46,116 bases of DNA from Deltaproteobacteria bacterium (GTDB lineage Bacteria; Desulfobacterota; Binatia; UBA9968; JAJDTQ01), in the NCBI GenBank assembly GCA_026712905.1, contig JAPOPM010000248.1:1-46116 (forward strand), written 5' to 3'. This document shows, piece by piece, positions 4,015 to 8,560 of this stretch (within the stretch, counting starts at the first letter, position 1; the number at the start of each line of letters is the position of its first letter). Position numbers and translations under genes: made by a program. The notes under the pieces were generated by a model. It was not told where the DNA came from. It was given only the letters and a program-made list of their open reading frames with translations, and did no database searches.

Positions 4015-6594
4015 CTACCAGATCATGTTGGCGCTCAGCATGACACCCTGGCTGTCCGCGCCGTGGGGCTGATCGTTGTGCACGCCTTCCAGGCTCAACG
4101 TGACCCACGACCCTGCCTTGAACTGCCCGCCCAGGCTCAGCCGCCGCGACCCCGCCCCGGAAAGCGACACGTCCGTGTAGGGCGTCAGCACCCCCCGGCC
4201 GCCCCACGTGGTGCCGAACCCATACGCGACCCGCGCATGGACACGCCCCGTTTGGTCGTCCGCCACCGGGCCGGCGACCCCGGTGTTCCACAACCGCTTC
4301 ACACCCCCGCCCGTCCGACCCCAGGCCGGCCGCAGGCTCGCCGCGAACCCCAGGCCCGCCTCGCCCGGATCGAGCCGCAACAGCCCGCTCACGCCCCACT
4401 CCTCGTAATCCTCGCTGTGGGCGAACAGCGTCCGCGCCCGGCCTTCCACCGTCAGTCCCGACGCCGCGTCCGTAAAGCGCAGCCCGCCCCCCGTCTCCAC
4501 ACTGCTGCCCGTGTCCCCGTCCCCGCCGTCGTAGCGCATACCCACCTCGATGGACGGCGTGAACGTCGCCCCGGAGGCCAGTTTGCGCTCGTGCACCCCT
4601 TCCAGCATCAGCCGCTGCCGGCTGGCGCTCAACGTCGTTTGCTCAAGACTCCCCGAGCCTTCGATATCGGCCCACGAAAACATCGTTTCGCCTTTCAGTC
4701 GCAGGCTCGTGGTCCCGCCGCCGATCAACTCATCGCTCGACACCAGAGGCCCGCTCACCCCCGCCGCCACCATCCGCTGCGTCAGGTCGCTCGCCTGCGT
4801 GTCCCCCGACTCGTCGATCTCCACCTCGCCCCAGCCATAGCCCCCCGTGGCCCACAGGTTCATGCCTGCCGAGGACTGCCAGCCCACGTACGGGTTGACG
4901 CTCGTCAACGTCGTCTCGGAATCGCCCGTCACCCCGGAGGCCGTGTATTCCACGGCTCCCCGCGCCCACGCCAACGACACCCCCGCCAGAAAGTCCTCGC
5001 TCAACCTCGTGTCCACCCCGAGGTTGGCGCTCGCCACGTTGCCGTCGTAGTCCACGGTCGCCGCGCTGCCGCCGGAGAAGTTGCGGTAGTCGCCGCCTCC
5101 CCAGAACGTCAGGTTCCCGAACAAACCACCCCTGCCCGTGCCCGCCGCGTAGAGCGGCACGGTAAAGGACGAGCCCGCGAGCAGCCGGCCGAGGTTGAAC
5201 GTGCCGCCTTCCAGCGCCCGCGCGTTCGTCAGAAGAACATCGGAGAACTTCGACGCGCCGCCGAGACGGAACCCCTTGGCGGGCGGGATGTCGGAGGTGG
5301 CCCGCCGGATGCGCCCGGAGACGGCATCGACGGTGCTGGCGGTCATGGCCCGCATGACCTGCGGCACCACCGACTTGACGGCCGTGTTCCGGCGCGCGGC
5401 CACCACGTTGGGTGAGCTCTGATAAAAACCCGACCCGACGATGATGTTGATCGGGCGTCTTCCCCGCGCCGTCACCACTTCATCGTTGAACGCGCGGGCG
5501 TAGCCCACCTTGGGGGTATCGGCGCTGTCGGTGTCGTCCGAGGGATCGTCGAAGTAATACTCGACGAAGCCGCCTTCCGGGTTGTTCTTCGCCGCGTCGA
5601 AAACCTGCGGCAGAATCAACTCTCCGGTCACGGCGTCCCGGACGGTCGGGGTCAAGGGTCGAAGCTCGAATCGGTTCGGAAACGCTCCGTGAAACAGAAT
5701 CGCGTCGATGGTGCGATCCAGGATGTAGAGGTACACCGAACCGTGTCTCCAGGGCCCGTTCGGATCCCGCAAGGCGATGAATGCTTTCGCACTGGCGGAC
5801 GGATCTCCACTCTTCAGGTGCCCCGTAACATAATTCCCCGCTTCCGTGACGAAGGCTTTCAATGTTTCCCGGTCCACCACGTCCCTGGCGGTAACGGCCG
5901 GGTCGCCATAATCGATTTGTTCCACGGCCAAGGGAGCCAGGTGAGACGAGTCGAGTTCGAATCCGGCAAGGGCCACGAACGGCAAACCCCCATAGGGGGC
6001 CGACACATAGGCGCTGGCATGACCGGAGGCGCCCGGCACCACGGAGGTCGCGTCGAACGGGGCCTCCGGTCCTCGCGACAGTATGCCGACCAGGACGGCT
6101 CGAGCGCGGACGGCCATCACAAGATCGGCGGAAGCCAAGTCCGCCAGGACTTCTTGCGGGACCCCCAACGCGGAAAGAATCGCGCCATAAATCAAGGGGT
6201 TGAGTTGCCGGCCCGTGAGGGCCGTGTCTTTCGCGTGCAAGAACAGCCTGCCGTCCAGCGACAGTGTCACGACGTAGGTGGAACCCGAACGCCAAGGACC
6301 CCCTTCTTGCCTCATGAGACACGCAAAGTGCAGGAATCGTCCCAGATCCGCCGAATCATTCTGGTTCCCTAATTCCGCGGTCACGGCCAGCGCGAACTCC
6401 ATCAGACCACCGCTGCCGTCTTCCACCTGTTGTGCCGTCACGGGCGGGTCCGCGGGAGCAGTCACACCGGCGGGAAGCGGACACGCCTCACGCGTCTGCG
6501 CCAGGGCGGGGTTTATATCGGAAAAGACCGCGAGCACGAACAGGCCGGCACAAGAAACCATTATAGTCGCGGCGGACAGTGTCCCGGTTTTCAT
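4015..6594 (-). CDS. Autotransporter-type outer-membrane protein with two Cache-like domains in the passenger
   Basis: Secreted/outer-membrane protein of 859 aa from the ATG at 6594 (AGGAG 10 nt upstream, then a signal peptide ending NPALA-Q). GTG/ATG codons at 6630/6627 would extend it by 11-12 residues. Residues about 55-225 and 235-390 look like two diverged Cache-type sensor domains: both contain a GPWR.GS.Y motif followed by an L/LF-H strand, and the second ends PKVGYARAF then IIVGSGFY, as in single-Cache domains. Residues about 490-859 form an autotransporter beta-barrel with many alternating strands, ending in the typical LSANMIW with a terminal aromatic residue. Cache domains normally sit in inner-membrane receptors, so this arrangement is unusual. 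Confidence 0.82.
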   Translation of the reverse strand: MKTGTLSAATIMVSCAGLFVLAVFSDINPALAQTREACPLPAGVTAPADPPVTAQQVEDGSGGLMEFALAVTAELGNQNDSADLGRFLHFACLMRQEGGPWRSGSTYVVTLSLDGRLFLHAKDTALTGRQLNPLIYGAILSALGVPQEVLADLASADLVMAVRARAVLVGILSRGPEAPFDATSVVPGASGHASAYVSAPYGGLPFVALAGFELDSSHLAPLAVEQIDYGDPAVTARDVVDRETLKAFVTEAGNYVTGHLKSGDPSASAKAFIALRDPNGPWRHGSVYLYILDRTIDAILFHGAFPNRFELRPLTPTVRDAVTGELILPQVFDAAKNNPEGGFVEYYFDDPSDDTDSADTPKVGYARAFNDEVVTARGRRPINIIVGSGFYQSSPNVVAARRNTAVKSVVPQVMRAMTASTVDAVSGRIRRATSDIPPAKGFRLGGASKFSDVLLTNARALEGGTFNLGRLLAGSSFTVPLYAAGTGRGGLFGNLTFWGGGDYRNFSGGSAATVDYDGNVASANLGVDTRLSEDFLAGVSLAWARGAVEYTASGVTGDSETTLTSVNPYVGWQSSAGMNLWATGGYGWGEVEIDESGDTQASDLTQRMVAAGVSGPLVSSDELIGGGTTSLRLKGETMFSWADIEGSGSLEQTTLSASRQRLMLEGVHERKLASGATFTPSIEVGMRYDGGDGDTGSSVETGGGLRFTDAASGLTVEGRARTLFAHSEDYEEWGVSGLLRLDPGEAGLGFAASLRPAWGRTGGGVKRLWNTGVAGPVADDQTGRVHARVAYGFGTTWGGRGVLTPYTDVSLSGAGSRRLSLGGQFKAGSWVTLSLEGVHNDQPHGADSQGVMLSANMIW

Positions 6595-6626
6595 GCGAAT
6601 GGTTCTCCTGCTCGGACCGTTGGCCA

Positions 6627-7010
6627 TCACGCGGGAGGTTGGCGCGACGCCGCCGTCACGCCCGCTCGTTCATCCCCTGGATTGACGATGAAGGCTTCGC
6701 CGCGCGTGAAGAAGTCACGCACCAGGGCGACGAACCGCTCGGGCTGGTCCACCTCGACGTTGTGACCCGCGTCGTAGACGTAGAGCAGCTTGGCATGGGG
6801 AATCTCCCGCGCCAGGAGCTGGCCGCTCTCGGGCGGCATCATGCCGTCCTTGGTGCCCTGCAGCACGAGGGTCTGTTGCTCGATCTCGGGCAACAGGGCC
6901 ACGAGCGCCTCATCGAGTCCGATGGAGTCGTGGTAGTAGTTGGCCCATCCCCGGAAGCCCCGACATGGTGTCGAGCCCCTCGTGGGGCGGAGTCCCGTCG
7001 AAACCGGGCG
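6627..7010 (-). pseudogene. Alpha/beta-hydrolase C-terminal remnant (frameshifted, 5'-truncated)
   Basis: The minus strand encodes an alpha/beta-hydrolase tail: LPEIEQQTLVLQGTKDGMMP with the usual acid-loop Asp, then YVYDAGHNVEVDQPERF with the catalytic-type His. Reading upstream, GWANYYHDSIGLDEALV continues in the same frame to about 6957. Before that, the plausible sequence TPPHEGLDTMSGL is in another frame, so a frameshift lies near 6950-6965. Nothing resembling the nucleophile elbow is found further upstream. The stop overlaps the GTG/ATG codons in front of the autotransporter gene. Most likely a decayed gene; sequencing error plus truncation is the alternative. Confidence 0.55.
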
Positions 7011-7196
7011 CGCACGCGCACTGCGCCGGCTCTTTGGATGTGCGAGTATATCCTTGCCCGTGTTGCATCGTCAACTACGAACCGTCGGGGTTGATGTACG
7101 AAAGTTTCAGCCCCGCCGAGCCCTTGCCGGCTCTACCGACGGCACTGTTGTTCCCACGCGGTTCGGGCTTTTCGTGACCGGGGCCGACCCATGACA
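7011..7196. other. Intergenic stretch without recognisable gene
   Basis: No reading frame on either strand gives a recognisable protein and no RNA gene is seen. It lies between the decayed hydrolase and the repeat array in front of the DUF4143 ATPase gene. Confidence 0.5.
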
Positions 7197-7277
7197 TTCC
7201 CATTCGGATGGTGTTCTATTCCGATTTGGACGGTGGTATATTCCGAAATGGACGCAACTTGATTCCGAATTGGACGG
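7197..7277 (+). promoter_or_regulatory. 22-bp-period direct repeat array upstream of DUF4143 ATPase gene (putative operator)
   Basis: Three near-identical 15-mers of the form TTCCGAnnTGGACGg begin at 7219, 7241 and 7263, exactly 22 bp apart (two helical turns). A fourth, degenerate copy matching 12 of 15 positions begins at 7197, in the same phase. A TATATT hexamer at 7237-7242 lies inside the array and the last copy ends 26 bp before the ATG at 7304. The spacing on one DNA face suggests cooperative protein binding, possibly autoregulation. Confidence 0.65.
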
Positions 7278-7303
7278 AAGGGATTCCACTTCGCGAGGCC
7301 ATC

Positions 7304-8560
7304 ATGCCAAATCCGACCACACGCGGGAAGTATGTGCCACGGCATTCGGAGGCACGAGTCCGCGAGGCGCTTACGGACACCCGCATCGTCGCCATCGTGG
7401 GTCCGCGGCAATCCGGCAAGACGACCCTCGCCCGGCGTATCGCCGCTGACGACGGCCGCCCCTTCATCTCCCTGGACGACGATCAAAACCGACGTTTCGC
7501 CGCGGACGATCCCATAGGCTTCGTCCGTGGCAACCCGACGGCGGTTATCGACGAGATTCAGCGTGCGCCGGCGCTGATCCTGGCCATCAAGCAGGCCGTC
7601 GACGAAGATGCGCGGCCCGGGCGCTATCTGATTACCGGATCGGTGGACCTCTTCAGGGCCGCCATCTCCCCCGATTCGCTTGCAGGCCGCATCGAAACCA
7701 TCGAACTGCTCCCCTTTTCCCAAGCCGAAATAACCCGGAGCGGCGTGCCGGGTTTCCTGGATCGGGCATTCTCCGGAGACTTCCCGAACCTCGCGGCAGC
7801 GGACGCCACGACGGATCTGACTCAGTGCGTCCTTGCCGGCGGCTTCCCCGAAGCCCTTTCACGGCCGCTGCCGTCACGCCGCGCGAACTGGCTGCGAGCC
7901 TACGCGGGTTCGCTGGCCGAGCGCGACGTCTCGGATATCGCAAGCGTTGGGAACCGCGACGCAATGGCCCGGCTGCTCGATCACGCGGCAGCCGCGGCCG
8001 GTCAGTTACTCAACATGAGTGGGATAGGGGCACGCCTGGGAGTGGACGGAAAGACCGTCGACCGCTGGCTGGCCCTGTTCGAGCACATGTTCCTTGTCCG
8101 ACGGGTCTACGCCTGGCATCGCAACGACCTGAAGCGCTTGGTCAAGCGGCCCAAGCTCCAGTTCCTCGACTCGGGCCTGCTTGCCGCGCTTCGGCGGATC
8201 GACAGCGCCGCCATCGCCGCAGACCGGCAGCAACTCGGTCCGTTGCTGGAATGCTTCGTGTACTCCGAGCTTGCGAAAGCCGCTACCCTGGTGGATCATC
8301 CGACATTCTTCTCCCACTACCGGGACAAGGACCGGGTCGAGGTGGATCTGGTGCTGGAGCGGTTGCCGAACGCCATTGTCGGCATCGAGGTCAAGGCAGG
8401 CGCCACCGCCCACCCCGGCGATTTCAAGGGTTTGGCCCGCCTCCGGGAAGCGACGGGCTCGCGCTTTGCCTGCGGCATCGTCCTCCACGACGGGGACCGT
8501 ATTCAGCAGGCGGGGCCGAAGCTGTTCGCCATGCCGGTGAGCGCGCTGTGGAAGGCGTGA
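7304..8560 (+). CDS. AAA ATPase with DUF4143 C-terminal domain
   Basis: P-loop ATPase of 418 aa from the ATG at 7304 (GCGAGG 5 nt upstream); a frame extension to 7208 would run through the repeat array and is unlikely. The Walker A motif is GPRQSGKTT and Walker B is AVIDEIQRAP, followed by a sensor-like YLITGSVDL. The C-terminal DUF4143 region has PKLQFLDSGLLAAL and an RVEVDLVLE...VGIEVKAG block resembling a PD-(D/E)XK nuclease core. These proteins are widespread, often mobile or variably present, and their cellular role is not established. It stands alone between a pseudogene and serS. Confidence 0.9.
   Translation: MPNPTTRGKYVPRHSEARVREALTDTRIVAIVGPRQSGKTTLARRIAADDGRPFISLDDDQNRRFAADDPIGFVRGNPTAVIDEIQRAPALILAIKQAVDEDARPGRYLITGSVDLFRAAISPDSLAGRIETIELLPFSQAEITRSGVPGFLDRAFSGDFPNLAAADATTDLTQCVLAGGFPEALSRPLPSRRANWLRAYAGSLAERDVSDIASVGNRDAMARLLDHAAAAAGQLLNMSGIGARLGVDGKTVDRWLALFEHMFLVRRVYAWHRNDLKRLVKRPKLQFLDSGLLAALRRIDSAAIAADRQQLGPLLECFVYSELAKAATLVDHPTFFSHYRDKDRVEVDLVLERLPNAIVGIEVKAGATAHPGDFKGLARLREATGSRFACGIVLHDGDRIQQAGPKLFAMPVSALWKA

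Follow-up and report, generated by a model that had tools for sequence, protein, structure and literature searches.

What would two sensor-like Cache domains do as the passenger of an autotransporter? The question is raised by a gene on the minus strand of the window (the whole stretch of 46,116 nucleotides that was analysed), for which an earlier note, made from the sequence alone, had proposed a passenger of two Cache-type modules followed by a C-terminal barrel. The open reading frame coincides exactly with positions 4015..6594, stop codon included, and encodes 859 amino acids without internal stops; it begins with ATG at 6594, and a likely ribosome-binding site, AGGAG (6605..6609), can be read 10 nucleotides ahead of it. 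All parts lie on the minus strand. Judged by eye, the hydrophobic N-terminus ending in ALAQ is a likely signal peptide (residues about 1-32, ...INPALAQ, 6499..6594). It is followed by module A (residues about 50-228, 5911..6447), module B (residues about 233-395, 5410..5898), a linker (residues 396-490, 5125..5409) that is kept only among barrel-bearing relatives, and a beta-barrel (residues 491-859, 4018..5124) whose last residue is tryptophan. In the AlphaFold model of the passenger a long helix opens the linker (model residues 363-387, which are protein residues 395-419). Two cysteines of the passenger, Cys38 and Cys92 (6481-6483 and 6319-6321), occur without exception in the 47 sequences aligned, and a disulfide tying the N-terminus to module A is likely. 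Upstream, positions 6627-7190 hold only the C-terminal piece of an alpha/beta-hydrolase gene, which the locus L010 of the same genus has in full (5007-5888 there); the fragment adjoins an ATPase open reading frame at 7208-8560, and the hydrolase gene of the window was possibly cut by an insertion.

The earlier note saw two similar modules, one containing GPWRSGSTYVVTLSLDGRLF (residues 99-118) and the other GPWRHGSVYLYILD (residues 280-293), the second ending with PKVGYARAF (residues 361-369) and IIVGSGFY (residues 384-391). A profile-profile comparison of the modules gave a probability of 95.9% and an E value of 6e-9 over 70 columns, so their likeness exceeds chance. Among 53 relatives, the Pfam profile dCache_2 (PF08269) matches 42 with a best E value of 1.9e-22, sCache_2 (PF17200) nine, FlgD_ig 12 and Por_Secre_tail nine; module B of the window protein itself scores 22.7 bits against dCache_2, slightly below the cut-off of 26.5. 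The AlphaFold model of the mature passenger, computed from an alignment of 47 sequences, has a pLDDT of 89.9 and a pTM of 0.87 and consists of two alpha/beta modules. Its best PDB matches by Foldseek are single-Cache chemoreceptor domains (E 5e-4), and VIA-align superposes module B on Adeh_3718 (4k08; Z 14.7, 2.9 A over 134 residues), PscD (5g4y; Z 14.2) and TlpB (Z 12.7-13.0). Module A, modelled alone with a pLDDT of 94, has its best Z of 10.3 to 4k08, and nearly all of the 50 matches listed are Cache-type sensor domains, with a weak best Foldseek E value of 0.015; taken together with its homology to module B, the model indicates a diverged Cache fold for module A. Sequence searches of the PDB, whether started from the passenger itself or from a profile of it, yielded nothing usable, and the Cache link was reached through structure and through the modules of Bryobacterales.

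The architecture supported by these comparisons is a tandem of two single-Cache (sCache_2-like) domains. In most relatives dCache_2 fits module B better than any other Pfam profile, but only about 80-110 of its 298 positions are matched. A dCache unit built on one shared long helix was rejected, since the N-terminal helices are separate for each module; it is also contradicted by the alignment of module B alone to single-Cache structures. A beta-helix passenger was ruled out, the model showing none. With a Cache match present and a beta-helix absent, neither outcome that the earlier note had named as refuting it occurred. Its two-Cache passenger stands, on the Pfam matches of the relatives and on the fold, as a tandem of single-Cache modules, the second of which alone has retained the known ligand pocket.

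That pocket is best understood from PscD, which grips propionate by means of Tyr90, His103, Tyr143 and Lys156, between Trp92 and Trp145; of these contacts, the single-Cache seed alignment shows high conservation for Tyr90, His103 and Lys156 (PMC5062169). All four carboxylate-contact residues have counterparts in module B: Y288 for Tyr90 (5731..5733, conserved in 46 of 47 sequences), H302 for His103 (5689..5691, 47 of 47), Y346 for Tyr143 (5557..5559, 47 of 47) and K362 for Lys156 (5509..5511, 47 of 47), all on the minus strand. The sequence alignment left the histidine out of register, and we infer the match of H302 to His103 from an HxxxP motif found in both module B and 4k08 and from the spacing of tyrosine and histidine (14 residues in module B versus 13 in 4k08). 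The position of Trp145 is occupied by F348 and is aromatic in 47 of 47 sequences, and that of Trp92 by Y290, which is tyrosine in 34 of 47. Module B therefore has an apparently intact pocket of the carboxylate type, with a small carboxylate or a carboxylate-bearing group as the presumed ligand; the ligand class is a prediction, because TlpB binds urea with the same fold. Module A keeps Y107 and H120, its lysine position is alanine in 44 of 47 sequences and the second tyrosine is absent; for want of these two residues it probably does not bind carboxylates as PscD does.

The C-terminal barrel claimed by the earlier note was confirmed by a match of residues 497-609 to the Pfam Autotransporter profile (PF03797) at 31.6 bits, with a gathering score of 26; the same profile matches 19 of the 53 relatives. 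An NCBIfam search gave no match. Neither in the window protein nor in its 53 relatives did Pfam find a methyl-accepting chemotaxis, kinase, cyclase or other output domain, and no transmembrane helix is evident after the signal peptide. Related barrels, 32-43% identical, are encoded at seven further places in the genome of the window; the four of these genes that were read (L075, L078, L080 and L081) have passengers of other kinds, and adhesin-like repeats are carried by other barrel proteins of the genome. In the autotransporter with the barrel of 43% identity (L075, 1501-4263 of G000:C105), the passenger consists of three repeats of a WW...CRLRRIATGDGNT...CAHYPGSG module in which no family was recognised. 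A search of the genome of the window for sCache_2 (PF17200) gave no match at an E value of 0.001.

A pattern scan of 84,980 species genomes, with a reach limited to close relatives, found 63 loci, all in records of metagenome-assembled genomes. The relatives are 44-82% identical and belong, going by record names, to eight phyla: Gemmatimonadota, Latescibacterota, Binatota, Alpha- and Gammaproteobacteria, Acidobacteriota, Chloroflexota (Caldilineaceae), Nitrospinota and one Desulfurellaceae bin. In the phylum of the window the only positive among 297 sampled genomes is that of the window itself, and seven of the nine genomes of its genus carry the gene. The N-terminal Cache pair is common to the relatives and the C-terminus varies by lineage: a barrel in Proteobacteria, the genus of the window, some Gemmatimonadota and Nitrospinota; a tail of the type IX secretion system (T9SS) type in Latescibacterota and Gemmatimonadota; by eye, a lipobox with nothing further in Caldilineaceae; a tail of roughly 150 residues of no named family in Binatota; and other repeats in L014 and L016. 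The pair occurs three times before the barrel in L019 and is also repeated in tandem in L027, and L036 and L067 have four extra Cache-like modules. SprA of the T9SS is present in five of five genomes tested that encode T9SS-tailed forms and in one of ten others, that of L019. The occurrence of one Cache pair with different anchors, and of SprA with the T9SS tails, counts in favour of the surface receptor or adhesin proposed below. In the Latescibacterota-type genome of L012 the Cache-pair gene forms a tandem array of about four copies (G306:C30:26658-34915); arrays also occur at G328:C98 and G307:C34, and Latescibacterota-type genomes hold many shorter single-Cache proteins as well. A search for a conserved operon partner found nothing beyond synteny at the level of lineages, and no transporter or signalling gene adjoins the gene consistently from phylum to phylum.

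The passenger tree (IQ-TREE, quick search, with SH-aLRT support only) mixes phyla and anchor types, which suggests lateral exchange. Anchor type requires 12 changes on it, the minimum possible being six, and phylum requires 18; starred clades unite phyla, as with L012 (Latescibacterota, T9SS tail) and L019 (Gemmatimonadota, barrel). Within the genus, the window and L010 are 92-96% identical in the flanking proteins (dS 0.17-0.40 by simple Nei-Gojobori estimates, as throughout) and 83% identical in the barrel (dS 0.31), versus 70% in module A (dS 0.62) and 67% in module B (dS 0.55); module B of the window is 90% identical to that of L002. As the passenger is more diverged than the barrel or the flanks, the pattern fits a passenger that was recombined or replaced on a vertically kept barrel.

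Some of the bins from which these loci come fit known sponge bins. The bin names and taxa of L059, L063 and L071 agree with a metagenome of the sponge Aplysina aerophoba (PMC5649159), and the labels RHO, IRC and COS agree with the Rhopaloeides, Ircinia and Coscinoderma of a study that also describes sponge-enriched genes passing laterally between symbionts (PMC8163846). The bin names of the SB set were sought in the literature and matched nothing. The sets SB, CO, jk18 and p16, among others, are presumably from sponges too, and with them the genus of the window, since L003 and L010 agree in their coordinates and G001 is therefore jk18x27bins.63. With origins checked for some of the sets, most source genomes appear to be those of sponge symbionts, and the bacterium of the window probably lives in marine sponges.

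The reading preferred here, with a probability of roughly 0.55, is that the protein is a surface receptor or adhesin which is exchanged laterally, has no coupling to signalling and binds small carboxylates or groups that bear a carboxylate; its ligand and its role are deduced from the comparisons above. It draws comparative support from the conservation of the pocket across phyla in 46-47 of 47 sequences, and binding of a ligand at the surface is a grounded prediction. Sec would export the protein, and the barrel would insert in the outer membrane and hand the modules to the cell surface, where they would remain attached. Module B would bind a small carboxylate, of which acetate, propionate, pyruvate and glycolate are examples, or a group of the sponge matrix that bears a carboxylate, while module A would be a spacer or offer a further surface for binding. 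As an output domain is absent, the function would lie in the binding itself, whether it serves to capture, to attach or to recognise, and the passenger may pass laterally among co-resident symbionts and join any anchor that is usable by the cell receiving it. The broader proposal, that sponge symbionts of many phyla, each with its own export system, share and laterally exchange the Cache pair as a surface receptor for small carboxylates or for carboxylate groups of the host, is held more tentatively, at somewhat less than even odds.

The faster divergence of the passenger than of the barrel and the neighbouring genes, the tandem repetition of the pair in L019 and L027, the extra Cache modules of L036 and the adhesin-like repeats on other barrels of the genome would also be expected if the Cache fold were only a stable scaffold, with variable outer faces that bind macromolecules of the host or of symbionts and with pocket residues kept for folding. 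Such a scaffold is nevertheless unlikely, perhaps half as probable as the preferred reading, since it is the ligand-contacting residues that are conserved at 46-47 of 47, and the equivalent positions of module A have been partly lost though its fold is retained. Improbable as well is that the displayed modules hold small carboxylates for uptake in the manner of a surface binding protein: the pocket is of the right type and a branched-chain-type ABC transporter adjoins the gene both in the window and in L010, but no transporter gene recurs beside it from one phylum to the next, and small carboxylates cross porins unaided.

Least probable is that the protein relays the occupancy of its ligand site across the outer membrane to a signalling partner. 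Cache domains do nearly always serve signalling proteins (PMC4822843), but there is neither an output domain nor an evident transmembrane helix past the signal peptide, and no linked signalling gene is conserved across phyla.

The protein differs in several respects from the known systems that it resembles. Module B shares its fold, at Z 12.7-14.7, with the sCache_2 chemoreceptor domains of PscD (5G4Y), Adeh_3718 (4K08), a methyl-accepting chemotaxis protein of V. parahaemolyticus (4EXO) and TlpB (3UB6-9), but theirs is a periplasmic domain in a membrane receptor with a signalling output, whereas here it is an output-free passenger that stands in tandem with another, diverged Cache domain. Like type V autotransporters with the PF03797 barrel, the protein has an apparent signal peptide, a passenger, a helical linker and a C-terminal barrel with an aromatic end, but the usual passenger is a beta-helix and not a pair of alpha/beta modules. 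The use of Cache domains without output is unusual because a 2016 survey reported known signalling outputs for all Cache families except SMP_2, a family like the present one in that respect and reported there as confined to proteobacteria (Upadhyay 2016, PMC4822843). A search of the literature for Cache domains together with autotransporters, T9SS or sponge symbionts yielded only a note of their enrichment in sponge Thaumarchaeota (PMC7848895), and no description of an output-free exported Cache pair was found in the literature searched. Export of the same pair by several phyla through differing routes suggests a widely shared surface trait. That the pair is kept, with several anchors, by unrelated bacteria that apparently share an animal host speaks for a role at the cell surface, and makes it a testable candidate for the recognition of host or metabolite in sponge symbiosis.
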